From a virus: 26,776 nucleotides of DNA. The number at the start of each line of letters is the position of its first letter. The first letter of the stretch is position 1. The notes under the pieces are model-generated. The model did no database searches, was not told the origin of the DNA, and saw only the letters and a list, made by a program, of their open reading frames with translations. The position numbers and the translations under genes are program-made. Of the stretch, positions 2-25,918 are shown one piece after another. The DNA lies in IMG/VR virus record IMGVR_UViG_3300032323_000316, positions 1-26,776 of that record; one strand, given 5' to 3'.

Positions 2-217
2 ATGACAACACCAGAGCAACTGATGACACAGGAAGAGCTTGCGTTCCGCTGGAAGATCAGCGAGGCCACACTGGAGCGCGACAGGTCACTTAAGCAGGGC
101 TGTCGATACCTCAAGCTGGGCGGCCTGATCCGTTACCGCATTCAGGATGTGTTGGATTATGAAGAAGCCTGCACGCATGAGCCGAAAGCCAAACTCAGGA
201 TTAAGAACAATGGATAA
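2..217 (+). CDS. Small HTH (excisionase/MerR-type) DNA-binding protein
   Basis: This 71-residue protein has the layout of an HTH_17/excisionase-type helix-turn-helix. Residues about 8-26 (MTQEELAFRWKISEATLER) form the HTH, followed by a short wing-like strand (YLKLGGLIRYR) and a closing helix (IQDVLDYEEA). Such proteins bind DNA as small phage regulators or recombination directionality factors. With no integrase in view a regulatory role is more likely, but this is inference. The ATG at base 2 could be internal to a longer gene because upstream sequence is missing; a second ATG lies at base 23. The stop overlaps the next gene by 8 nt, so it is part of a coupled chain of small genes running to 1851. 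Confidence 0.75.
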   Translation: MTTPEQLMTQEELAFRWKISEATLERDRSLKQGCRYLKLGGLIRYRIQDVLDYEEACTHEPKAKLRIKNNG

Positions 218-4141: not shown

Positions 4142-7100
4142 ATGGCTGATCGCAAACCGTCAGACGACAAAGCCGCCTTTGGCGTTTTCCCACAGATGAG
4201 GGGCAAGCGCTCCAAACAAGATCCAGAAGCCGCCAAGAATGTCCCGGTTGACCTCGCCCGAGGGTTTGTTGCTGGCGCTTTGGGTATGCCCGGTGACGTC
4301 GAGTCCTTGGTTCGCCTGCCTTACGAGCTGATCACAGGCAACGAGTCCCCAACATTCCTGCCCACGTCCGAAGACATTGAGAAGCGCCTGCCATTCAGGA
4401 GCGACACCCCCGTCAGCCGTGCTGCATCCGGGCTGGGCATCTTGAGTGGCGGCTTCTATACCGGCCCCGGCTCTGGTGCTCGGGCCATCACTGCTGTGCC
4501 CAAGGCCGTCAAGCGTGCTGGTCTGGACTTTGCCCAATCGATCAGCCCCGTGAACGTGATCAAGCCTAAGGGTGGCAACTTCCTAACGGGTAGCGTTGAG
4601 GGGGCGTTGAAGGGATTGAAGCGCAATACAGCCGCTGGAAATGATCCTGCTGAAATGCTCAATCGGATGCGTGAGCGCTATACGCCAGAAGAAATTGCAA
4701 AATTACAAGAAGGCACAATGAAGCAGCATGTGCTTGACAGCATCACAGACTTGGAAAAAGACGTGGCGCTCAACAACTGGGTCGAACGCAACTTGACCAA
4801 CTACGTCAAGAGAGATATGGCAACCCCAGAAGACCCTGTTCGCCGGTTGGCAGACCAAGGAATTGTTCATGTATCTCCTGATGAGGTTGGCATGAACCGA
4901 TACAGAGCAGGCGCTCATAGGTCAACATTTGGTGGGCAGCGGGAGGGTATATCAGAAGCAGCAAGAGCATGGGAAGATTCCGCAGATGTTGCAATTTCTC
5001 CATATACCGTTGGCGAGATAAAAAAAGCAAAAGAGACTGGTGGCCCATTGAGCGGCTTATATGAGCCTTGGATGGATAAGGCCGATGAAGCCACAGAAAT
5101 TTATAAAGCAAGCAAAGAATTGCACCCCAACTATCTTGGCTTTGATCACATCATGGACGTTCTGCGCCAAGACGTAGCTTCTGGCCGCATCCGCCCCGAC
5201 CAGCTCAACAAGGTCAGCATGGAGCAGGCAGTACGCCGCACCTACGAGTTTGACCAAGAGATGGCGAAGAAGATGCGTGAAGCCGCCATTAAGCAGCAAG
5301 AGGGCTTCCCCGTCTACAAGGAGTACCCAGAGGGCTATCGGTGGATCGAGCTTACTACGCCGAAGAACATGAAGTTGCCAGAGGGGTACTCGGTAAAGCC
5401 CGATCCAATCACAAACCGCAAGACTGGCGTTGTTGACACAAACAGCTATAGATTGGTTGACAAAGAAGGCAAGGCAGTTGGCTGGGGCAAAACCGAAGAG
5501 GAGGCAATCTCATCTGGCCTTGGTGAGCAGGTACTCAAAGACGCCCTCAAGTACGAAGGCGACACGATGGGCCACTGCGTTGGTGGCTACTGCCCTGACG
5601 TGCTGGAAGGCCGCTCCCGCATCTTCAGCCTGCGGGATGCAAAAGGTGAGCCGCATGTGACGATTGAGACATCTCCGCAGGTGGATTACGAGCAAGCCGC
5701 AAGGTTGATGGGTGTTGACGATCCAACAAAAGGCGACATTGCCAGACTCGTTGCAGAAGGCAGACTGCCAAGCACGGAGAAGATTGTCCAGATCAAAGGC
5801 AAGCAGAACGCACGACCCATCAGCAAGTACGACCCATTCACGCAGGACTTCGTGAAGAGCGGTCAGTGGTCTGAAGTGCGGGACTTGCAGAATACAGGGT
5901 TACGCCGTCGTGACACGCCTGAAGGCGTAAAGTATATGAACGACGCCGAGTATTCCGACGATCTTCTCCGAGAGCTTGGGATGCCGCCCGAAGAAGGCAT
6001 GAAGCGTGGCGGTGTTGTCGTATCCAACAATCCCGACACCATGATGCTTGAGTTGAACAACCACAAGATGGCTGGTGGTGGTCTTCTCAAGGGTTTGGCC
6101 AAAGCCGTGAAGGGCACGAAAGCGCCTCAAGACAAGGCTTTGTCACTGGCCCAGCAGCGTGCCGCATTGCCTGTCGAACAGGGTGGATTAGGACTACCGG
6201 CCAACAACACGCCTGAACAACGCGCCAAAGCGATGGGGTACATTGATTACCTTCATGGCACTCAACGAATGGATCGTTTGCTTGAAGGCAAGACGCTTAA
6301 CCCTCGGCGTGCAACCTCAGGCCCCATGCCCTACGGGACAACAACGCCAGAGTTGGCATCAAGCTATGCCACATCAAAGGCTGACACCTCGCGCAGAGCG
6401 ATGGACGAAGGCGATGTCCGTCGTTACTTTGAGGTTGCCCCTAAGGACATTGGCGTTCAAGGGTTTCGGACTCCAATTCCTGTTGAGCAGGCATGGAACT
6501 TCATGAGTCCTGAGCAAAAAGCCCGTATCAGCAATCTTGCCCCGCGAGTCGGTTACGAGGATCTTGATCAGTTCACTGGTGAATTTATTGTCCACCCAGA
6601 GGGCGTCAATGCCACGTTGAGTCCATCCCAGTGGGACTGGTTTATGAAGAATGAGGCCAGAGGAAACCCTTTGACGGCTTTGCGAAACATGTGGTACGAG
6701 TCGGGTCAGCTTGTAGATGAGCCTGAAAAACTAGGCGAGATTTATCGGTTGGCTGGCATTGAAGCGCCAATCAGCCAAACAAACGCCCCGTGGACTGAAG
6801 CTCAAGGTGTGTTGCTTGGTAAGGCTAGGATCACCAACCCAATCGACACTTCAAACACCGAACAGATTGCTGCACTCATTGAGCCTTTGAAGCAAGCCTT
6901 TGCAAAAGACCGCAGTCGCACAAAAGCAGGAGGCCCAGATCAGTGGGCCAAGGATTCTCGGTATACGCCAAAAAGCTGGGTGTCTGAACTTGAGAAGGAT
7001 ATTGCCGATAACAAGGAATCGTATGTTTGGACGAGCATCCCAGACAAAGTCACGCAAGAGCTGATCAGGTTGGGTTTCAACGGAATTATTGATCGTTCTG

Positions 7101-7720
7101 GCAAGGGCGGGGGCGCAAAGGAGCCTGTGGTCATACCATTCACTCCCGAGCAAGTACGCTCACGCTTTGCGGCCTTTGACCCATTCCGAAAGACAGCAGC
7201 AACAGCCGCAGCGATGGGTGTGGCCGCACCTGACTTGTTGGCAGAAGAAGCGTCGAAAGAACGTGTCCAAATCTCCGATGATCCGCAAGTGATGGAGCTG
7301 GAGATAAATAAAGCCAAGGGTGGCGCAGTCCACATGCAAGTTGGTGGCATCGTCAACTCGCTGGCCAAGACCGAAGCGTTGGCCAAGCTTGCCAAGCTCA
7401 GGGAAGAGATGGCCACACGTTCCGAAGCAGTCAAGAACCTGACCGCCAAGGACGAGAACAAGTACCTGAGCGACGTTACCCCCAACTCACTGACCAAAGC
7501 TGAGATTGAGGCTGAGATCGCACGCATGAAAGCCCGTGTTCAACCTGAAGTTAAAAAGGCTGACGGTGGCGCAATAGATTTCAACACCACGCCCGATACC
7601 TCCGATAAGGGGCGTATCATGGAAGGTGCTCCATTTAAACATGGTGGTAAAGTCAAGATGACTGCCAACCGCGACGCAATGTTCTTGGAACTGAGCAACA
7701 AGAAGCTCAAAAGGAAATAA
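4142..7720 (+). CDS. Two-module protein: PcfJ-like domain plus ADP-ribosyltransferase-like (polyvalent-type) domain
   Basis: A 1192-residue protein between terminase and portal. The N-terminus has a Gly/Ala amphipathic segment (VDLARGFVAGALGMPGDVES). Residues about 440-515 match the PcfJ-like family around EGDTMGHCVGGYC (472-484, His478/Cys479) with a following beta pair ending PHVTIE. Residues about 650-1014 look like an ADP-ribosyltransferase of phage and plasmid polyvalent proteins: YLHGT at 703-707, a fold-typical segment GTTTPELASSYA, FNGIIDRSGKGG, then Glu994 and the closing RSRFAAFDP at 1006-1014. A motif D/P-x-M-x-LELNxxK..GG recurs at 632-647, 1048-1063 and 1173-1192. DNA around 4640-5140 is AT-richer. 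Possibly an injected effector or head-internal protein. Domain calls are by eye; the activity is unproven. Confidence 0.75.
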   Translation: MADRKPSDDKAAFGVFPQMRGKRSKQDPEAAKNVPVDLARGFVAGALGMPGDVESLVRLPYELITGNESPTFLPTSEDIEKRLPFRSDTPVSRAASGLGILSGGFYTGPGSGARAITAVPKAVKRAGLDFAQSISPVNVIKPKGGNFLTGSVEGALKGLKRNTAAGNDPAEMLNRMRERYTPEEIAKLQEGTMKQHVLDSITDLEKDVALNNWVERNLTNYVKRDMATPEDPVRRLADQGIVHVSPDEVGMNRYRAGAHRSTFGGQREGISEAARAWEDSADVAISPYTVGEIKKAKETGGPLSGLYEPWMDKADEATEIYKASKELHPNYLGFDHIMDVLRQDVASGRIRPDQLNKVSMEQAVRRTYEFDQEMAKKMREAAIKQQEGFPVYKEYPEGYRWIELTTPKNMKLPEGYSVKPDPITNRKTGVVDTNSYRLVDKEGKAVGWGKTEEEAISSGLGEQVLKDALKYEGDTMGHCVGGYCPDVLEGRSRIFSLRDAKGEPHVTIETSPQVDYEQAARLMGVDDPTKGDIARLVAEGRLPSTEKIVQIKGKQNARPISKYDPFTQDFVKSGQWSEVRDLQNTGLRRRDTPEGVKYMNDAEYSDDLLRELGMPPEEGMKRGGVVVSNNPDTMMLELNNHKMAGGGLLKGLAKAVKGTKAPQDKALSLAQQRAALPVEQGGLGLPANNTPEQRAKAMGYIDYLHGTQRMDRLLEGKTLNPRRATSGPMPYGTTTPELASSYATSKADTSRRAMDEGDVRRYFEVAPKDIGVQGFRTPIPVEQAWNFMSPEQKARISNLAPRVGYEDLDQFTGEFIVHPEGVNATLSPSQWDWFMKNEARGNPLTALRNMWYESGQLVDEPEKLGEIYRLAGIEAPISQTNAPWTEAQGVLLGKARITNPIDTSNTEQIAALIEPLKQAFAKDRSRTKAGGPDQWAKDSRYTPKSWVSELEKDIADNKESYVWTSIPDKVTQELIRLGFNGIIDRSGKGGGAKEPVVIPFTPEQVRSRFAAFDPFRKTAATAAAMGVAAPDLLAEEASKERVQISDDPQVMELEINKAKGGAVHMQVGGIVNSLAKTEALAKLAKLREEMATRSEAVKNLTAKDENKYLSDVTPNSLTKAEIEAEIARMKARVQPEVKKADGGAIDFNTTPDTSDKGRIMEGAPFKHGGKVKMTANRDAMFLELSNKKLKRK

Positions 7721-14131: not shown

Positions 14132-14581
14132 ATGGCACAAACCTATTTTGGTTCTACCCTGCGAGCAGGCTCTGGCACGTTGACTGATACTGTGGATGGC
14201 GGCTTCGTCGTCATGACACAGACCACCACTGTGACCACTGTTTCCGCAGGCACGGCTGTTAGCGCATCGCTGACCCTTCCCGCATCCTCGCAAATCATCA
14301 ACATCTTTGTTGACATGGTTCGTGATGAAGTGGTGGGTGGCGGAACCGCTACTACCTTGCCGATCACCGTTGGCACAGTCGCCGCAGGTACACAGTACGT
14401 GTCCTCGACCGACCTGTTCGCTGGTGGCCGCGCAGCAGCATCTTTCACTACCGCTCAGTTGCTGGCGATGTCTGACATTGGTACAAACACCTCTGTCGTC
14501 CTCACCGCCGACCCTAACGGCACGATCAGCACAACACAGGCGATTATTCGCATGACCGTTGTGTATGCTCAGAAAGTCTAA
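14132..14581 (+). CDS. Beta-rich virion protein, unknown
   Basis: A 149-residue, Thr/Ala/Val-rich protein with alternating beta pattern (FVVMTQTTTVTTVSAGTAVS, then IINIFVDMVRDEVVGGGTAT and SVVLTADPNGTISTTQAII). No charged domain or cysteines. It lies directly downstream of the capsid gene hairpin, with AAGGAG at 14118-14123. Composition and placement suggest a small head-surface or head-completion protein, but no family is recognised with confidence. Confidence 0.65.
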   Translation: MAQTYFGSTLRAGSGTLTDTVDGGFVVMTQTTTVTTVSAGTAVSASLTLPASSQIINIFVDMVRDEVVGGGTATTLPITVGTVAAGTQYVSSTDLFAGGRAAASFTTAQLLAMSDIGTNTSVVLTADPNGTISTTQAIIRMTVVYAQKV

Positions 14582-14591
14582 GGAGCGCATC

Positions 14592-15647
14592 ATGGGTCAA
14601 TTCAAACCAATGGTGAAGATGGAGACCACTGAGCCCTCGATTGAGCTGAAGCTTAAAAAAGGTGGTTCTGTGAAGAAAGCTATGGGCGGCTCTATGAGCG
14701 CTCCCATGGCCTCTTCGGCGCCTGCTCGTGGCGGCATGATGCCCGTCGCACGTCCTAAGCGTCCTACTATGGCAGCACGTCGTGCGGCCATGATGGGCAT
14801 GACGGGCATGAAAGAGGGCGGCGAGTCCAAGTCCACGCACATGGCCGAGATGTCGAAGATGAAGGGTCTTGAAAAAGATCTGAAGTCTCACGAGTCCAAG
14901 CCTGCAAGCAAGGCCCACAAAGGTCTGAAGTCTGGTGGTATGGCTTGCGCTACTGGCGGCATTGCCAAGTCTACAAAGCCCGGTGGTTATGCCACTGGCG
15001 GCGTAGTAAATGGTCAAGGCGGCTTCAAAAAGGGTGGTGCTATCGCTAAGAGCGGCATCATCAATACTGAAGGCCAAGGCGGCGAGTATCGCAACACCAA
15101 GATGGTCACAGCCAAACCTGACACAAACAGCGCCCCCACGGGTGATGTGAAGTTGGGCAACGGCGGTGGTTACAAAAAAGGCGGTGCGACAAAAAAGCAC
15201 TACGCTACGGGGGGAGCTGTTAATAACAGCGGTCGCGCCGTAGCATACCCAGCCAAAAAGCCATCTGCTCCCGTCAGCAATGATCGTCAATCTGGCACTT
15301 TTAAAACAGGTGGCAGCGTGACTCCAGCCCAGAAGAAAGAGCAATCTGCCTTCAAAGCTGAGAACGCAACAGCGATGAAGCAAGCGAAAGCCCAGAGCAA
15401 CCTGAAGTATCAATCTGGCGGTAGTGTGACTGACCTTTCAAAAGGCGCTTACGACAAAGCAATCGGCCCAAGCGAGGAAGAAATGGATATGGCCAAGGCC
15501 ATCCGTGCCGTCCCGCGCAAGCTGTATGAGGGTGCGAAGAGCCTGTTTACTAGCAAGGACGAAAAGCCGAAAGGCTCTGTTACCAAGACTGAAAAGTCCG
15601 TGACGGTGACTCCTGCAAAGAAACGTGGCGGATCAGTTACTTGCTGA
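14592..15647 (+). CDS. Lys/Gly-rich repeat protein with recurring GG motifs
   Basis: A 351-residue basic, low-complexity protein starting at the ATG at 14592 with AAGGAG (14580-14585) 6 nt upstream. The N-terminus includes METTEPSIELKLKKGGSVKK. At least ten K/A-x-x-GG-x-x units follow, such as KSGGMACATGGIAK, YATGGVVN, FKKGGAIAK, YKKGGATKK, YATGGAVNN, FKTGGSVT, YQSGGSVTD and the C-terminal KRGGSVTC. There are no enzyme motifs. It is probably disordered and nucleic-acid- or capsid-binding (inferred). The motif is shared with several other proteins in this window. Confidence 0.75.
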   Translation: MGQFKPMVKMETTEPSIELKLKKGGSVKKAMGGSMSAPMASSAPARGGMMPVARPKRPTMAARRAAMMGMTGMKEGGESKSTHMAEMSKMKGLEKDLKSHESKPASKAHKGLKSGGMACATGGIAKSTKPGGYATGGVVNGQGGFKKGGAIAKSGIINTEGQGGEYRNTKMVTAKPDTNSAPTGDVKLGNGGGYKKGGATKKHYATGGAVNNSGRAVAYPAKKPSAPVSNDRQSGTFKTGGSVTPAQKKEQSAFKAENATAMKQAKAQSNLKYQSGGSVTDLSKGAYDKAIGPSEEEMDMAKAIRAVPRKLYEGAKSLFTSKDEKPKGSVTKTEKSVTVTPAKKRGGSVTC

Positions 15648-18397: not shown

Positions 18398-20599
18398 ATG
18401 TCCGCACAAGTAACGATCACCCAACTCCCACAGGCTGGCGCGATTACGGGCACAGAGCTTGTCCCCATCGTTCAAAATGGCCAGACGGTGCAGACTACGA
18501 CTGCGGCCATCTCGGCAAGCCCGTCGCAAACTTATCAGTACCTGACGACCGTCCAAACCCCGCAGTTGCCAAACAGCCGCTTCCTGTCCACAGGGACGGG
18601 TTTGGGGCTTGTGGATGGTGGTGCTCAGAGCTTCTACCGGATCACGCTCAACGGCGTCTCTGGCACTTTGGAGAGCATGGGCAACGGCTTTGGCGTGAAC
18701 GTGGGCGGCACAATGACCGCTCGTTCGATTGCTGTGTCTGGCGCTGGCCTGTCGATCTCCAACGGCGACGGCCAGTCGGGCAATCCAACTGTCTCTCTGG
18801 ACGGCACTGTAGCTTCTCTTGCAAACAACGGCGGCACAGGCTTCTTGGCTCTGCCCGGAAATGGCACTGTATCTGGCAGAACCCTGACAGGCACAGCAAA
18901 CCAGATAGGCATCACCAATCCCAACGGTATTGCTGGTAGCCCTGTTTTCAGTATTGCTGACAATCCCGTTCTACCCGGAACGGAAGGTGTCACAGTGCCT
19001 ATTGGGACGACGGCAGAGCGGCCTTCTTCTCCAAACAATGGTGAGCTTCGATACAACACATCAACAGCCACTTTTGAGGGCTATGCAAACAATACGTGGG
19101 GCTCAATCACCACGGGTACTGGCGTTACCTCTGTGGGGACGGGTACAGGTCTTACTGGTGGCCCAATTACTTCCACGGGCACGATCTCAATCGCCAACAC
19201 AACCGTTGTTGCTGGTAGCTATACCTCCGCCAACATCACAGTAAACGCCCAAGGCCAGATCACTGCTGCGGCAAACGGTGCGGCAGGTGGTGTGACGAGT
19301 TTCAGTGCTGGCACGACAGGCTTCACACCCTCTTCGGCCACCACTGGTGCGATCACCCTTGCAGGCACTTTGAATGTCGCAAACGGCGGAACTGGTGCAA
19401 CCTCGCTGACTGGCTATCTTGTCGGCAGCGGCACAAGCCCAGTCACGGCTGTAGCCACAATTCCAAATGCTGGGCTGACAAACAGCTCAATCACCGTAGG
19501 CACAACGGCAATCGCCTTGGGTGCGACAAGCCTCACCCTTGGTGGGTTGACCTCTGTCGCGGTAACGCAAGATCCAACATCTGCGCTGCAACTGGCAACC
19601 AAGCAGTACGTGGATGCAGTGGCCGAGGGCCTTCATATTCACGGGGCCTCCGCTGCGGCAACAACAGGCACTCTGGCGTCCATCACTGGTGGTACGGTGA
19701 CCTACAACAACGGCACGGCTGGTGTTGGTGCAACTCTGACTTTGTCGGTTGCTTTGACCGTTTTGGATGGCTACACGCTGCTCAATGGCGACCGTGTGCT
19801 TGTCAAGAACGAAGCCACGCAGGCCAACAACGGCATCTACACATGGGCAACCGGTGGGACTGTTCTAACCCGTGCGACTGACTTTGACACCGCTGCCGAG
19901 ATGGCAAGTGGTGACTTCACGTTCGTTGTAAACGGAACCTTGTACGCCAACACCGGGTGGGTTCAGATTGATCCCGTTACAACTGTGGGAACAAGCCCTG
20001 TAGTTTGGGTTCAGTTCTCTGGTGCGGGTGCATACACCGCAGGGACTGGCCTGACCCTCTCTGGGACTCAGTTCAGCATCACCAACACTGCGGTGACTGC
20101 TGGCTCCTACGGTTCAACCTCTTCTGTCCCGACTTACACGGTCAACGCGCAGGGTCAACTGACTGCCGCATCCAACACCACAATTGCCATCGCCAACACT
20201 CAGGTGAGCGGTCTTGGGACGATGTCCACGCAGAACGCCAACGCTGTGGCAATCACTGGCGGAGCGATTAACGGGGCAACTGTCGGGGCAACAACTGCGG
20301 ACACGGTTCGCGGCACAACGATCACAGCCACCACTCAGTTTGATGGCCCCGGTACGGGGTTGACCGGCACAGCCGCAGGTCTGTCGATTGGCGGGAACGC
20401 TGCGACAGCCACATCGGCCACCACAGCCACGAACGCAACAAACGTCACCACAACAGCAACAGGCACGGACGCCAACTTCTTCATTCCCTTCGTGGCAGCG
20501 TCCACAACGGGAAATCAAGCGCTTGGAGTTGACGCAGGCATTACTTACAATCCATCAACCAACGCACTGACCGCAAGCATCAACGGAGGGACATTCTGA
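18398..20599 (+). CDS. Long tail-fiber-type protein
   Basis: A 733-residue Thr/Gly/Ala/Ser-rich fiber. N-terminal SAQVTITQLPQAGAITGTEL is a common phage tail attachment start. A GTTAERPSSPNNGELRYNT-type segment (about 209-227) is followed by paired shaft repeats at about 247-295 and 548-600, each running GTGLTxSGT-like, then xxAGSYxxxxxTVNAQGQxTAA. Between them is a globular unit with ATKQYVDAVAEGLHIHG and DGYTLLNGDRVLVKNEATQA then NNGIYTW. The chain ends just after YNPSTNALTASINGGTF, which in related fibers is usually followed by more shaft. Its last base overlaps the next ATG (TGATG). Likely a trimeric tail fiber or fiber base; receptor unknown. Confidence 0.8.
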   Translation: MSAQVTITQLPQAGAITGTELVPIVQNGQTVQTTTAAISASPSQTYQYLTTVQTPQLPNSRFLSTGTGLGLVDGGAQSFYRITLNGVSGTLESMGNGFGVNVGGTMTARSIAVSGAGLSISNGDGQSGNPTVSLDGTVASLANNGGTGFLALPGNGTVSGRTLTGTANQIGITNPNGIAGSPVFSIADNPVLPGTEGVTVPIGTTAERPSSPNNGELRYNTSTATFEGYANNTWGSITTGTGVTSVGTGTGLTGGPITSTGTISIANTTVVAGSYTSANITVNAQGQITAAANGAAGGVTSFSAGTTGFTPSSATTGAITLAGTLNVANGGTGATSLTGYLVGSGTSPVTAVATIPNAGLTNSSITVGTTAIALGATSLTLGGLTSVAVTQDPTSALQLATKQYVDAVAEGLHIHGASAAATTGTLASITGGTVTYNNGTAGVGATLTLSVALTVLDGYTLLNGDRVLVKNEATQANNGIYTWATGGTVLTRATDFDTAAEMASGDFTFVVNGTLYANTGWVQIDPVTTVGTSPVVWVQFSGAGAYTAGTGLTLSGTQFSITNTAVTAGSYGSTSSVPTYTVNAQGQLTAASNTTIAIANTQVSGLGTMSTQNANAVAITGGAINGATVGATTADTVRGTTITATTQFDGPGTGLTGTAAGLSIGGNAATATSATTATNATNVTTTATGTDANFFIPFVAASTTGNQALGVDAGITYNPSTNALTASINGGTF

Positions 20600-21039
20600 T
20601 GTCACAAGCAGGTTTTACCCCCATTCAACTCTACCGCACAGCCACGGCTTCTGCGGCTCCTACGGCTGGCAACTTGGCTGATGGCGAACTTGCCATCAAC
20701 ACGCTAGATGAGAAGCTGTACTTCAAGAACTCGGCTGGCACTGTCAAGCTGCTTGCTTCAAGCGCTGGCGCTGCTGGTGATGTTGTAGGCCCAGCATCGG
20801 CCACAAACAACGCTCTGGCGGCTTTTGATGGCACTACAGGCAAGCTGATCAAGAACGCTAGTTTGACCGCCAACAACGTACTGCTTGGCAACGGAACCGG
20901 CGCTCCTCTGGTAGTGGCTCCGGGCACTGCTGGCAACGTCCTGACGTCCAACGGAACCACATGGACATCTGCGACCCCAGCGGCTACAGGAGCCACAAAG
21001 GGTCAGGCAATCGCCTTCTCAATCATCTTCGGTCTGTAA
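20599..21039 (+). CDS. Small fiber-associated protein
   Basis: A 146-residue protein. Its N-terminus FTPIQLYRTATASAAPTAGN, DGELAINTLDEKLYFKNS is the short repeat-like module found at N-termini of many phage fibers and receptor-binding proteins (ADGELAIN..KLYFKN). Glycine-rich triplet-like stretches follow (LLGNGTGAPLVVAPGTAGNV), ending in IIFGL. It is coupled to the large fiber by TGATG, with GGAGGG at 20585-20590. Probably a tail-fiber segment or accessory protein. Confidence 0.7.
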   Translation: MSQAGFTPIQLYRTATASAAPTAGNLADGELAINTLDEKLYFKNSAGTVKLLASSAGAAGDVVGPASATNNALAAFDGTTGKLIKNASLTANNVLLGNGTGAPLVVAPGTAGNVLTSNGTTWTSATPAATGATKGQAIAFSIIFGL

Positions 21040-21048
21040 GGAACCATC

Positions 21049-21447
21049 ATGGCAAATCCAAACATTGTAAACGTCACGTCCATTCTTGGTACGACCACGT
21101 ATCTCACACCCAGCGGTACAACAGCAGTTGTTTTGCTGCCTAACGCAGCTTCAAGCAACACGGTCTTCAAGATCAACCAGATCGTTGCTGCCAACGTGAA
21201 CGGCTCTGCGGCGGTGGACACCACGGTGTCAATCTATACCAACGGCGCTGTGGCTCAAGGCTCTGCACCTTCTGGCGGCACGGCCTTCCCAATCGTCTCG
21301 ACAGTCTCAGTGCCTGCTGATGCTTCGCTGATTGTGGTGGACAAGACCACGGCCCTGTACTTGATGGAAGGCACATCGATTGTTGTGACCTCCGGTACGG
21401 CTAACGGCATCACATACAGCATCTCTTACGAAGTCATCGCAAGCTAA
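21049..21447 (+). CDS. Small beta-rich tail/virion protein
   Basis: A 132-residue, hydrophobic beta pattern protein (YLTPSGTTAVVLLPNAAS, DTTVSIYTNGAVAQG, TVSVPADASLIVVDKTTALY). No cysteines or catalytic motif. Such proteins occur with fibers in aquatic phages; probably a small tail- or fiber-linked protein. AAGGA lies 6-10 nt upstream of the ATG. Confidence 0.65.
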   Translation: MANPNIVNVTSILGTTTYLTPSGTTAVVLLPNAASSNTVFKINQIVAANVNGSAAVDTTVSIYTNGAVAQGSAPSGGTAFPIVSTVSVPADASLIVVDKTTALYLMEGTSIVVTSGTANGITYSISYEVIAS

Positions 21448-21457
21448 GGGGTAGCCC

Positions 21458-23092
21458 ATGTCCATGCGCTACAAAGGTGGGGTTATCTCCGCCACACCAC
21501 CTGCTACAACCACATCAAGAGGCATCTGGACGCTTGAGCAACAGTTTCAGGCGGCAGGTGGCGGGGTTTGGCCAGCAGTACCCGGCGCACCAACCAGCGT
21601 CAGCGCCACAGCCGGTAATGCATCTGCTACGGTGTCTTTTGTTGCGCCTTCATACACTGGCTATCCTGCGGGTATTACGGGGTATAGCGCCACGTCTACG
21701 CCCGGTAATTTCACGGCTACTGGATCGTCATCCCCTTTGACGGTGACAGGGCTTACCAACGGGACAAGTTACACCATCGCTGTACGGGCAATCAATGCCG
21801 CTGGCTCTGGCCCTGCGGGTACGAGCGGCAGCGTTACACCGACCAACCCATATTACATAGCCACCCTTACACCTTCCTCTGGAGCTTACTATTTGCAGGG
21901 GTTTATGTTTACTGCTGTAAATGCAAGCGGAATGTTTTTGGCCGGAGGAGACACAAGTGGCGGAAGAATTCAAAAATTAAACTATGACGGCACTATAGGG
22001 TTTCAAAACTTCATCAACGTTTCTGGAGGCTCCCCCTACTTCACCGCCACCTCCGTTGATAGCTCAGGAAATATCTACACAGGTGGTCGTGTCACCACCG
22101 GGTTTGGAAGTGGCCCTTGGATTACAAAGTACGACTCTGGCGGTTCTATCACATGGTCTGTGGGTATAGGTTTCCTTGCTCAAGATACAGCATGCGTTAC
22201 CGTAGATTCGTCGCAAAATGTGTATTACACAGGAAGAAAAAACACGAGTGCTTTTGGTGGTTCAAACCGGATTGTCGTAGGAAGTTTAAATTCTTCCGGC
22301 GCAGATAGATGGCAGACCGAGTACGGCACAGGATCTGGCGGTTTTGTGCCGGGGGGCGTTGGCATTCATAGCAGCAATTTATTTGTATCTGGAACTTGGT
22401 ACGACCCTAGTTTTACAACATACGGCGTATTCTTCACTCTTGCTCAAAGCAACGGTGCGTTGAGTTTTGAGCAGCGTTATGTTAGCGGATCACGGTTCTA
22501 CACATTGGTGACCGCTGCATCAGGCATGAGCTACATAGGCGGACAAAGCAACAACAATAGGAGCCTGATACTGAAGGTTGACTCTTCTGGAAACAAGCAG
22601 TGGGGTATGCAGCTTGCAACGGGCTACACAGACTGTGAAGTTGCAATTGATGCAAGCGAAAACGTCTACGCTGTTTCTGCTGGAAACGGAAACAGCGACG
22701 TTAGAACCATTGCAATAAGTAAGTACAACTCCTCCGGAACGATTCAGTGGCAGAGAAATTTACAAGTTGGCGCTGGTCAAGATGTATCGGCTGGGCCGAT
22801 TAGTGTGTCAGTTACAAGCGGAGGTAATATCTTTATCGCCGCACCCGTAATAGACACCGGCCCAACTTTTTATGTTTTCACTGCGCTCTTGAACCCAGAC
22901 GGTTCCGGAACAGGGACGTACACATTGGGCGGAAAGACATACACGTACTCTGCTTCATCGTACACATCGGCCACTGACACCAATACGTTTGCCTCGACTA
23001 GCAACGGCGTGAGCGTTCAAAGTCGCTCTGTATCAACAATGACAACGTCCTCCACGACCGACAATCTGATTTTGGCAAGGACTTCGTTATGA
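21458..23092 (+). CDS. Receptor-binding/fiber protein: attachment tag, FN3 domain, beta-propeller-like domain
   Basis: A 544-residue protein. Residues 1-40 are a tag (YKGGVIS...RGIWTLEQQ...GGGVWP) shared with the 681-residue protein at 23360. Residues about 41-130 form a fibronectin type III domain (APTSVSATAGNASATVSF, GLTNGTSYTIAVRAINAAG). The rest is a series of blade-like repeats: SSGNIYTGGRV, YDSGGSITWSVG, DSSQNVYYTGR, DSSGNKQWGMQ, DASENVYAVS, YNSSGTIQWQR, the pattern of SBBP-type beta-propellers. GC falls sharply at the start of the blades (about 21850). AAGGGG (21446-21451) precedes the ATG. It probably binds a host surface glycan or protein. Confidence 0.8.
   Translation: MSMRYKGGVISATPPATTTSRGIWTLEQQFQAAGGGVWPAVPGAPTSVSATAGNASATVSFVAPSYTGYPAGITGYSATSTPGNFTATGSSSPLTVTGLTNGTSYTIAVRAINAAGSGPAGTSGSVTPTNPYYIATLTPSSGAYYLQGFMFTAVNASGMFLAGGDTSGGRIQKLNYDGTIGFQNFINVSGGSPYFTATSVDSSGNIYTGGRVTTGFGSGPWITKYDSGGSITWSVGIGFLAQDTACVTVDSSQNVYYTGRKNTSAFGGSNRIVVGSLNSSGADRWQTEYGTGSGGFVPGGVGIHSSNLFVSGTWYDPSFTTYGVFFTLAQSNGALSFEQRYVSGSRFYTLVTAASGMSYIGGQSNNNRSLILKVDSSGNKQWGMQLATGYTDCEVAIDASENVYAVSAGNGNSDVRTIAISKYNSSGTIQWQRNLQVGAGQDVSAGPISVSVTSGGNIFIAAPVIDTGPTFYVFTALLNPDGSGTGTYTLGGKTYTYSASSYTSATDTNTFASTSNGVSVQSRSVSTMTTSSTTDNLILARTSL
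21521..21540 (+). repeat. Identical 20-bp direct repeat, copy 1 (fiber tag)
   Basis: Identical to 23441-23460. It encodes GIWTLEQ in the attachment tag of the 544-residue fiber. The flanking bases differ at both ends, so exactly 20 bp are identical, 1920 bp apart and in the same orientation. Confidence 0.9.
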
Positions 23093-23367
23093 CCATTTAC
23101 ATCAAACTTTCCACAGGTGAGTATCCACGGCACGAGGGTGATGTGCGGTTGGAGTACCCAGACATGGGTGAGCAATTTGTTTTGCCGGACACCTACGCGC
23201 ACGTTCAAAGCACCGAAATGCCTGAACACGACTACATCACACAGAGGGCCGTAGAAACCCCGCCCATTCAGGTTAACGGGCAGTGGATTATGCAGTGGAT
23301 GGTGCGTGACGCAACGCAACAAGAATTGGACTTTGCCGCCAAGCAAAAAGAGGTAAACAATGTCTGA
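23089..23367 (+). CDS. Small fiber-associated protein, possible assembly chaperone
   Basis: A 92-residue protein between two fiber genes, coupled on both sides (ATGA with the upstream gene; 8-nt overlap with the next). Start YIKLSTGEYPRHEGDVRLEY, then FVLPDTYAHV and a C-terminal IMQWMVRDATQQELDFAAKQ. Short acidic proteins of this type next to fibers are often fiber-assembly chaperones; that role is inferred from context, not from a catalytic motif. Confidence 0.65.
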   Translation: MTIYIKLSTGEYPRHEGDVRLEYPDMGEQFVLPDTYAHVQSTEMPEHDYITQRAVETPPIQVNGQWIMQWMVRDATQQELDFAAKQKEVNNV

Positions 23368-25405
23368 ACGTTTCCCCGGTGGCATCATCACCAACAACCC
23401 CGCAACTCCTACGGGGCCGTTTGAGAATGGCTCTGCTCCCGGCATCTGGACGCTTGAGCAGCAAGCAGAGTTTGTCAGGCAAGGCATCTGGCCGATTGCT
23501 GGCAACGTGCCCAACTACATCGAAGACGTATTCAGCACTTGGCTGTACACAGGCAACGGCTCTACACAGACCATCACCAACGGGATTGATCTGGCGGGTA
23601 AGGGCGGGATGACATGGATTAAACCGAGGAACCAAGCTACCAGCAATATGCTGTTTGACACCAGCCGAGGCACGGGAAGGATTATTTATTCCGATGCCAC
23701 TGCTGCACAATCCACCGATAACAATTCACTGACCGCTTTTAATTCGAATGGCTTTAGTCTTGGAACTAGCGGTCAAGGCAACGGATTGTTTAACTACGCC
23801 TCATGGACCTTCAGAGAGCAGCCGAAGTTTTTTGATGTGGTGACGTACACGGGGAATGGTTCTGCAAGGACTATTGCCCATAACCTTGGCTCTGTGCCCG
23901 GTTGCATGATTGTTAAGCGTACAGACGCATTAGCAGATTGGGCTGTGTATCACAGATCAGTGGGAGAGTTTGTTTACTATTCATTGAACAGTTCTTCAAC
24001 TTTTACTGTGTCAGCGACTGTTTGGAATAGCACATCCCCTTCCAGCACGGTTTTCAGTGTCGGTAATAATTCAGTAGTAAACGCCTCTGGCGGTACATAT
24101 GTGGCTTACCTTTTTGCCCACAACGCAGGAGGCTTTGGACTAACGGGTACGGACAATGTAATTTCATGTGGAACATATGGCGGTAATGGAAGTACAACTG
24201 GCCCTGTAATTGACTTGGGATATGAGCCGCAATGGTTAATGATTAGAAACGTCAATAGCACTGGAAACTGGCAAATTATTGACAATATGCGTGGTATGCC
24301 AGTTGGTTCTGCTGATGCAACGCTGCAAGCAAACTTAACCAATGCTGAGTCGTCTGTTGATTACGTCAGTCCAACCGCCACAGGCTTTCAAGTTGTCTCA
24401 ACAAGCAGCGAAGTAAATAGCGAATCAACTGCTTATATGTACATCGCCATACGCCGTGGCCCGATGAAAGTGCCGACAACGGGGACGAGTGTGTTTGCGC
24501 CTGTTGCTGTCACTCCTACCGCTGGATCATCTTTCACAACAAACTTCCCCTTTGATTCTTCGTTACTTGGGTATCGTCTTGGCAACGATGGTGGGAATTG
24601 GACTTTTATTGATCGTCTTCGTGGGTATGCAAATGCATCAGGCGATGGTCAACCAGTTCTTAGGACATCAAGCACAGGCGCTGAATTTGCGGCTGGAACC
24701 ATTGTCTATAACACAAATAATACAGGCGGTTTGTGGGGTAGTGCATACGCAGGATTGAGTGATATTTTTTATTTTCTGCGCCGTGCCCCCGGCTTCATGG
24801 ATGTTTGTTGCTATACGGGGACGGGTGTTGCAAGGACTGTGGCGCACAACTTGGCAGCAGTGCCTGAGTTGATGATTGTAAAAAGTCGCAGCCAAGGCGG
24901 AGATTGGCCTGTTTATGCCGCCATAGAGGGTCCATCGCGGGGTACTGAAATTAATTCTACGGGTGGTTTTTATGATGCCTCTACCCAATACTGGAATTCC
25001 ACAAACCCAACATCCACCCAATTTACGGTTGGAACAAATGCCGCCTTAAACGCTTCAGGCGCAACATACGTAGCCTACCTATTTGCTTCATGCCCAGGCG
25101 TAAGCAAAGTCGGCAGCTACACTGGTACAGGCGCAACACAAGTTATTGATTGTGGTTTTACAGGTGGCGCTAGATTTGTTCTCATTAAGCGTAGAGATTC
25201 AACTGGCGGCAATTGGATGGTGTGGGACTCTGCCCGAGGAATCGTATCGGGTAACGATCCATACATCTCTTTGAACAGCACAGCCGCTGAAGTCACCAAC
25301 ACCGATTGGGTAGATACCGCAGCCTCTGGGTTTGAACTGAGCAACGCTGGCGGCAACTTGGCTAACAGCAATGGTGGAGCCTACCTCTTCTTGGCAATCG
25401 CATAA
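23360..25405 (+). CDS. Receptor-binding/fiber protein with six related beta units (DUF7483-like)
   Basis: A 681-residue protein. Residues 1-50 carry the same attachment tag as the previous fiber (RFPGGIIT...GIWTLEQQ...QGIWP). The rest holds six related beta units opening with a Y-x-GNGS/GTG strand, a hydrophobic strand and a MIVKR/WMVWD-type strand ending in RG: around 55-105, 154-200, 258-306, 378-430, 481-525 and 574-620. Several share NSTxPxSTxFxVGxNxxxNASGxTYVAYLFA (split here by positions 223-247 and 550-571). The pattern matches DUF7483-type phage proteins. AT-richer than the capsid genes. Likely a receptor-binding protein; ligand unknown. Confidence 0.75.
   Translation: MSERFPGGIITNNPATPTGPFENGSAPGIWTLEQQAEFVRQGIWPIAGNVPNYIEDVFSTWLYTGNGSTQTITNGIDLAGKGGMTWIKPRNQATSNMLFDTSRGTGRIIYSDATAAQSTDNNSLTAFNSNGFSLGTSGQGNGLFNYASWTFREQPKFFDVVTYTGNGSARTIAHNLGSVPGCMIVKRTDALADWAVYHRSVGEFVYYSLNSSSTFTVSATVWNSTSPSSTVFSVGNNSVVNASGGTYVAYLFAHNAGGFGLTGTDNVISCGTYGGNGSTTGPVIDLGYEPQWLMIRNVNSTGNWQIIDNMRGMPVGSADATLQANLTNAESSVDYVSPTATGFQVVSTSSEVNSESTAYMYIAIRRGPMKVPTTGTSVFAPVAVTPTAGSSFTTNFPFDSSLLGYRLGNDGGNWTFIDRLRGYANASGDGQPVLRTSSTGAEFAAGTIVYNTNNTGGLWGSAYAGLSDIFYFLRRAPGFMDVCCYTGTGVARTVAHNLAAVPELMIVKSRSQGGDWPVYAAIEGPSRGTEINSTGGFYDASTQYWNSTNPTSTQFTVGTNAALNASGATYVAYLFASCPGVSKVGSYTGTGATQVIDCGFTGGARFVLIKRRDSTGGNWMVWDSARGIVSGNDPYISLNSTAAEVTNTDWVDTAASGFELSNAGGNLANSNGGAYLFLAIA
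23441..23460 (+). repeat. Identical 20-bp direct repeat, copy 2 (fiber tag)
   Basis: Identical to 21521-21540, inside the attachment tag of the 681-residue fiber. Same orientation and same reading frame as copy 1. It could support recombination between fiber genes. Confidence 0.9.
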
Positions 25406-25414
25406 GGAACAATC

Positions 25415-25918
25415 ATGCAAATCAGAATCCGACAAACAGGCGCGGTCGTTTTTGAAAACGAGTTCCGCACATACGCTCAAACTCAGGGGGCCGTCTTTGG
25501 CGCACCCGTGACTGAAGAGTTCATCAACCAGTACGGTGGCGACATCGTGTTTGAAGGCCCACAGGCTACTGGCGGCACGGTTTACCAATACAGTCAGCGC
25601 GATGGCGTTGTCCAAATTGGCGACAAGTGGTACACCAAGTACATCCTCGGCCCCGTCTTTACCGACCGCCCAGCCACCGACACCGATCCAGCCAAGACCG
25701 CTGCCGAGCAGGAAGCTGAGTACAAGGCCATGAAGGATGCAGAGCAAGCCCAATCTGTACGCAACTCACGTACCCAGATGCTCAAGGACAGCGACTGGAC
25801 ACAGATCGCCGACAGCACTGCTGACAAGCAAGCATGGGCTGCGTACCGCCAAGCCCTGCGCGACATCACCGCACAAGCTGGCTTCCCTTGGACGATTGAC
25901 TGGCCTGTTGCGCCTTGA
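25415..25918 (+). CDS. Tail fiber assembly chaperone
   Basis: A 167-residue protein. A beta-rich start (MQIRIRQTGAVVFENEFR) and then a helical C-terminus with VRNSRTQMLKDSDWTQI, DKQAWAAYRQALRDITA and FPWTIDWP, the signature of phage tail assembly chaperone proteins (Phage_TAC_12 / DUF4376-type). These fold distal fiber domains and sit directly after their fiber gene, as here. AAGGA (25404-25408) lies 6 nt before the ATG. Confidence 0.85.
   Translation: MQIRIRQTGAVVFENEFRTYAQTQGAVFGAPVTEEFINQYGGDIVFEGPQATGGTVYQYSQRDGVVQIGDKWYTKYILGPVFTDRPATDTDPAKTAAEQEAEYKAMKDAEQAQSVRNSRTQMLKDSDWTQIADSTADKQAWAAYRQALRDITAQAGFPWTIDWPVAP

Follow-up and report, generated by a model that had tools for sequence, protein, structure and literature searches.

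Two classes of N-terminal tag, in fixed order, precede exchanged heads in paired fibre genes of uncultured phages

Introduction

Why should a phage carry, side by side, two fibre genes whose products begin alike and then continue as unlike proteins? Receptor-binding proteins with a conserved N-terminal anchor and an exchanged distal part, sometimes two of them in one phage, are established for T7-, K1-5-, G7C- and Klebsiella-type phages (PMC6872550). In Klebsiella KP32-type phages and in G7C, the N-terminus is conserved, horizontal exchange affects the part with enzymatic or binding activity, and a second protein, which is sometimes lost, is attached by a conserved peptide of about 29 residues (PMC6872550). 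The locus analysed here raises the question whether both fibres dock in one common tail socket, as the first-pass annotation of this DNA supposed, or whether each has a place of its own, and by what route their distal parts are replaced.

Results

Two neighbouring fibres with related N-terminal tags

The window, that is, the whole stretch of 26,776 nucleotides that was analysed (IMG/VR record IMGVR_UViG_3300032323_000316), encodes a 544-residue fibre A (21458-23092) and a 681-residue fibre B (23360-25405). Residues 1-46 of fibre A and 1-51 of fibre B are 44% identical and have in common MSxR..GG.I, GIWTLEQQ and G.WP; when the tag of fibre A was used as query against the whole record, the two fibres were the only matches. 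The distal parts are unlike, fibre A consisting of tag, FN3 domain and beta-propeller, the latter recognised by matching its AlphaFold2 model to known propellers, and fibre B of tag and two DUF7483 copies (Table 1). The first-pass description of two fibres with a shared N-terminal tag and dissimilar distal parts was therefore correct. In the monomer model of fibre A, the first 21 residues are of low confidence and unstructured, and a helix spans residues 26-34. At E 0.1, no profile of Pfam, PHROG or NCBIfam matched the tag of either fibre, and homology to the T7 gp17 anchor domain was not seen in this search, which may miss so short a tag; among 45 B tags, a single one weakly matched a tail-fibre family of PHROG, and a literature search with the tag motif returned nothing relevant.

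Table 1. Features of the fibre locus, in coordinates of the window
Feature	Position	Strand	Evidence
146-aa protein, tail-fibre-like N-terminus, C-terminal FSIIFGL	20599..21039	+	phrog_10316 and others
132-aa jelly-roll protein, candidate socket	21049..21447	+	homologue in place; AF2 model
Class-A docking tag (predicted), fibre A residues 1-39	21458..21574	+	alignment, class scores; AF2 model
20-bp direct repeat copy 1, within GIWTLEQ core	21521..21540	+	exact match
FN3 spacer domain, fibre A	21587..21820	+	PF00041, E 2e-8
Beta-propeller head, fibre A	21854..23089	+	AF2; Foldseek to CylK E 1.9e-13, NHL propellers
92-aa small ORF, possible assembly helper	23089..23367	+	phrog_4998, unknown function
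Class-B docking tag (predicted), fibre B residues 1-45	23360..23494	+	alignment, class scores
20-bp direct repeat copy 2	23441..23460	+	exact match
Fibre B head, two DUF7483 copies	23525..25402	+	PF24299, E 2.1e-93, 2 stretches
Tail fibre assembly chaperone	25415..25918	+	PF16778 Phage_tail_APC, E 1.1e-18

Scans of IMG/VR with the tag and both fibres found about 240 loci among the matches listed, and the B-tag scan gave at least 539 relatives; 138 non-redundant loci were the basis for counting tag order and number. Scores of the tag HMM were sharply bimodal, members reaching at least 49 bits, with the exception of two A tags that are shortened and score about 25 bits. Nearly all of these relatives are metagenome contigs, picked by their likeness to the tag or the fibres. 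The only published phage record with the tags is DSL-LC04, which was itself assembled from a metagenome (Dishui Lake, OR003939); it has one A and one B tag, downstream of an adaptor gene and of the same upstream gene as in the window. A scan of bacterial genomes for a prophage or host link yielded just three weak MAG contigs, leaving such a link unsupported.

Tag class and gene order

Exactly one class-A tag upstream and one class-B tag downstream were present in 110 of the 138 loci. The order BA and the pair AA were never seen (0 loci each), and the remaining single-tag loci were mostly cut by a contig end. The class-A consensus reads RYKGGVISATPP...GxWTLxQQMQ...WP, that of class B xYPGG[IF]ITKxP...GxWTL[DE]Q...GxWP. 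Searches of whole records (29 and 27 records) found two tags in nearly all of those that were not truncated. When each half of the tag was scored against both class models, the A-minus-B scores of the classes showed no overlap (90 and 92 tags), and neither half changed class in any of the 110 pairs. A tree placed all of 98 A and 99 B tags with their own class, with a moderate support of 0.63 for the A|B split over about 40 aligned residues; since the tags are short, trees resolve little. Judged by these comparisons, tag class follows gene position, and the A and B tags look like old paralogues that have been kept distinct. A class that follows position contradicts a simple common socket. The single tail socket of the first-pass annotation is thus not upheld, every pair being composed of one A and one B tag in fixed order with no half crossing class.

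Heads exchanged behind constant tags

The regions behind the tags fell into 23 strict families, the large ones occurring behind both A and B tags. Families common to the two slots are DUF7483 (27 in slot A, 49 in slot B), the beta-propeller (23 and 16), Gly-rich, LamG and Lcl_C; Pfam calls among heads and spacers comprised propellers (SBBP, RCC1), LamG, Gly_rich_2, Lcl_C, DUF7483 and FN3 spacers. Since one head family can stand behind either tag, heads can change slot and tags do not. Among 179 same-slot pairs whose tags were at least 90% identical in DNA, 20 had unrelated heads, a count that rests on a lenient comparison and is corrected for the BLAST composition adjustment by which our first head-family counts overstated unrelated glycine-rich heads; in 136 more, the heads were less than 60% identical. 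In the pairs with unrelated heads, the jelly-roll genes upstream were about 89% identical; these pairs represent no more than about four or five sets of related phages.

Alignment of the DNA located the border of the exchange. In several B pairs, the homology formed a tag-sized island with unrelated DNA on both sides; the island of L020/L195 covered positions 0..126 at 95.2% identity, and those of L024/L014 and L010/L007 positions 6..122. In several A pairs, homology ran from the upstream gene as far as the end of the tag, and in L013/L242, L191/L033 and L076/L227 it stopped at or near that end. Over all pairs with divergent heads, the end of homology lay at -6 to +12 nt from that of the tag in 80 of 119 A pairs and in 53 of 135 B pairs. 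Among related phages the tag is therefore conserved while the distal domains differ, the pattern of N-terminally anchored modular receptor-binding proteins, and the modular exchange proposed in the first-pass annotation is borne out. As a separate observation, the 68-kb contig G005 (L013/L242/L245) holds two related AB cassettes that are 83-89% identical outside the A head; their A heads differ, and homology stops at the tag.

Could these be ordinary paralogous fibres, descended from an old duplication, with heads that diverged fast under host selection and with only the general mosaicism of phages? Most same-slot pairs do have related heads, of about 50% identity, and because such heads are far commoner than unrelated ones, much of the head divergence may be ordinary fast evolution instead of swapping. 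Moreover, tag distances are correlated among themselves and, weakly, with those of the jelly-roll gene (Mantel r 0.33, 0.25 and 0.19), as they would under mainly vertical descent. Against this stand the unrelated heads behind near-identical tags, with homology stopping at the tag border, and the head families common to both slots; together they require recombination, and we consider paralogy with divergence alone unlikely. Both slots of a genome held heads of one family in 62 loci out of the 110; the expectation was 20.5. Head types are thus matched within a genome, perhaps since both fibres serve the same host. Recent duplication of a head within the genome was rejected as a source, since A and B heads of one family resemble each other little more inside a genome than across genomes.

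The 20-bp repeat is a by-product of the conserved core

The identical 20 bases noted in the two tags were confirmed (GGCATCTGGACGCTTGAGCA; Table 1). The repeat is exact at both sites and unique when up to 3 mismatches are allowed, and 0.01 matches would be expected by chance. It lies inside the sequence coding for GIWTLEQ; with the codon usage of the window, two copies of one peptide would have identical GIWTLE codons with a probability of 0.0056. Over the 110 paired loci, the longest exact match between A and B tags had a median of 8 bp, and its maximum, 20 bp, was that of the window; as the longest of 110, one case of 20 bp is unremarkable. Tags A and B from different genomes matched over at least 20 bp in 0.36% of comparisons, the longest match being 30 bp. 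The mean A/B match was 8.9 bp within a genome versus 8.3 bp on random pairing (p 0.001), a slight excess that may stem from common base composition and codon usage; synonymous identity at A/B sites with the same residue was 41% within and 38% between genomes, which is not significant (p 0.09).

These figures bear on the proposal that both fibres use one common socket and that the A/B repeat is a point of recombination within the genome, leading to deletion or head switching. Three loci speak in its favour. L070 and L071 have one fibre each, with a tag whose front half is of class A and whose back half is of class B (whole-record searches found this single tag), and L186 retains of its A fibre just a frameshifted tag remnant that stops in the core, the head being gone and B following directly. 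However, A/B identity is not conserved, codons at same-residue sites are hardly more alike within than between genomes, and tag class changed in none of the 110 pairs. Exact patterns for direct A-to-B junctions of the window phage were sought in IMG/VR and none was found. Chimeric tags are rare, at 2 loci; chimeric-tag patterns run over all viral contigs returned L071 only and missed L070, probably owing to its codons. Resolvase, integrase and reverse transcriptase (PF00078) had no match in the window record, which is possibly a fragment. We therefore regard this proposal as very improbable, and a dedicated A/B recombination site as a feature of the family is rejected. The repeat of the window phage is a by-product of the conserved GIWTLEQ core and no dedicated switch. 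Of the recombination point suggested in the first-pass annotation, what remains is that the common core is, on rare occasions, a breakpoint, as the chimeric tags and the head deletion of L186 indicate. Other switches were considered for the window as well. The invertible tail-fibre switch of the Mu/Min type has a recombinase and inverted crossover sites, whereas the 20-bp repeat is direct and the only inverted repeats in the window are short and imperfect; the zero matches to recombinases and reverse transcriptase, in a record that may be a fragment, speak against a site-specific switch or a retroelement there.

Split and chimeric tags

Two fibres are not an absolute rule, as seen from a few one-fibre loci and one three-fibre lineage. 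In the latter, the A tag is split over two genes, the first starting MSMRYQAGIVLPGYN and the next MPNFSGIWTVTQQMQAKG..WP, and B comes after them. This arrangement suggests that the tag is made of two separable docking elements. Single-fibre cases are few, and assembly errors could produce some of the frameshifts or junctions. A possible reading, which we hold tentatively, is that the tag is bipartite: its RYxGG front and its GxWTxxQQxQ..WP back would fill separate sites on a hub with fixed, non-equivalent positions, so that the distribution of half-tags among genes would set the number and arrangement of fibres while heads are exchanged via tag DNA. If so, one fibre would fill both sites in cis, two would share them in trans, as in the split-A lineage, and chimeras with an A front and a B back would give virions with one fibre.

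The chimeric-tag fibre of L070 also resembles a known system of another kind. The region 1084-3987 of L070/L243 comprises this single fibre, with an Lcl_C head, a variable repeat at 1666-1791 and a template repeat at 2319-2444, 82% identical, an Avd-like ORF and a reverse transcriptase; the fibre appears to be an adhesin diversified by a retroelement, like the Mtd-type C-type lectins of diversity-generating retroelements. A reverse transcriptase was present in 1 of 34 records checked, that of L070.

Neighbouring genes and the candidate socket

In 89 of 101 loci, the gene next upstream of fibre A codes for a homologue of the jelly-roll protein, of about 130 residues; most of the others have either a further split-A fibre or a putative GIY-YIG endonuclease in between. 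The latter, an ORF of about 186 residues (MANVAHLYKITN...MVYIGVTKNP) located behind the jelly-roll gene and ahead of the A tag in L103, L040, L113 and L081, could promote local gene conversion. The AlphaFold2 model of the jelly-roll protein (pLDDT 91.7) has nine strands. It matches no known family in Pfam, and in structure it best matches the cement protein of phage KHP40, a trimer (Z 9.4; 109 residues at an rmsd of 3.0); its function is not identifiable from the fold, many jelly rolls matching at Z 7-9.4. By their position, this protein and the 146-aa protein that precedes it are the best candidates for the socket. Homologues of the 146-aa protein end in the motif [AS]x[ILV][FY]Gx at 70 of 94 loci, and a conserved extreme C-terminus resembling KxIAxAMIFGF suggests a C-terminal docking motif.

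The small genes behind the fibres allowed another possibility to be weighed, namely that the tag, instead of anchoring the fibre in the virion, is recognised by an assembly chaperone or directs processing, and is removed or comes to lie buried elsewhere. Chaperone-like genes do come after the fibres, and the front of the tag is unstructured in the monomer model. Homologues of the 92-aa ORF, however, follow 22 of 23 propeller fibres in slot A versus 2 of 16 in slot B, and those of the assembly chaperone follow 30 of 37 DUF7483 fibres in slot B versus 2 of 27 in slot A. The small genes thus travel with head type and slot while the tag is constant, so that the tag does not track the chaperone; moreover, known phage receptor-binding proteins are anchored N-terminally as a rule (PMC6872550). 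We find a chaperone or processing signal very improbable.

Elsewhere in the window, an SU10-type adaptor (PF24175; 16975-18045) has an F5/8 type C (discoidin) domain match at residues 98-205, two large ORFs (4142-7720 and 14559-15647) contain repeated Lys-Gly-Gly motifs (KKGG, KHGGKV, MKRGG), and the 1192-aa one of these has a YLHGT...YGTTTPELASSYA stretch resembling, by eye, an ADP-ribosyltransferase-like domain.

Discussion

The explanation that we consider probable is a two-slot receptor-binding module, in which each slot has its own tag and heads are exchanged by recombination. Each of two neighbouring fibre genes would start with a docking tag of about 40 residues, A before B and one of each, usually just behind the conserved jelly-roll gene. 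The tags most likely dock the fibres at a tail hub, each tag at a separate position, and the jelly-roll protein would be part of that hub; the heads would bind the receptor. The head behind each tag would be replaced through recombination between phages; from where homology ends, we infer that the homology used is the same-slot tag (about 120 bp) plus, for slot A, the upstream jelly-roll gene.

The nearest known arrangements differ in several respects. In K1-5, K1E and SP6, the adapter gp37 holds two receptor-binding proteins via different short N-terminal peptides of 7 and 11 residues; the tags described here are about 40 residues long, are clearly paralogous to each other and in one lineage are divided into halves, and nothing like the gp37 adapter was recognised. 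With KP32-type phages and G7C they have in common the conserved N-terminus and the exchanged distal part. The first protein of those phages, however, has a long anchor and a T4gp10-like domain at which the second one docks, whereas both fibres here have equivalent short tags; at E 0.1, Pfam gave no match to such a domain in either fibre, and the fibre A model holds only tag, FN3 and propeller. Thus, the tag family and the two-slot rule are new, and the principle of anchored, swappable receptor-binding proteins was already known.

A fixed pair of neighbouring fibres with position-specific tags and replaceable heads is carried by many uncultured water-borne phages. The tag is a sequence handle that the searched profiles of Pfam, PHROG and NCBIfam lack. 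With it, candidate adhesins can be recognised across a large set of aquatic phages not yet cultured: whichever head a protein has, an A or B tag at its start suffices. It allows the constant parts, position-specific tags and jelly-roll partner, to be told apart from the exchanged heads, and split tags, chimeric tags and head loss are natural experiments that make the docking rule testable. By a swap of heads, such a phage could alter what it grips and leave the mounting unchanged.
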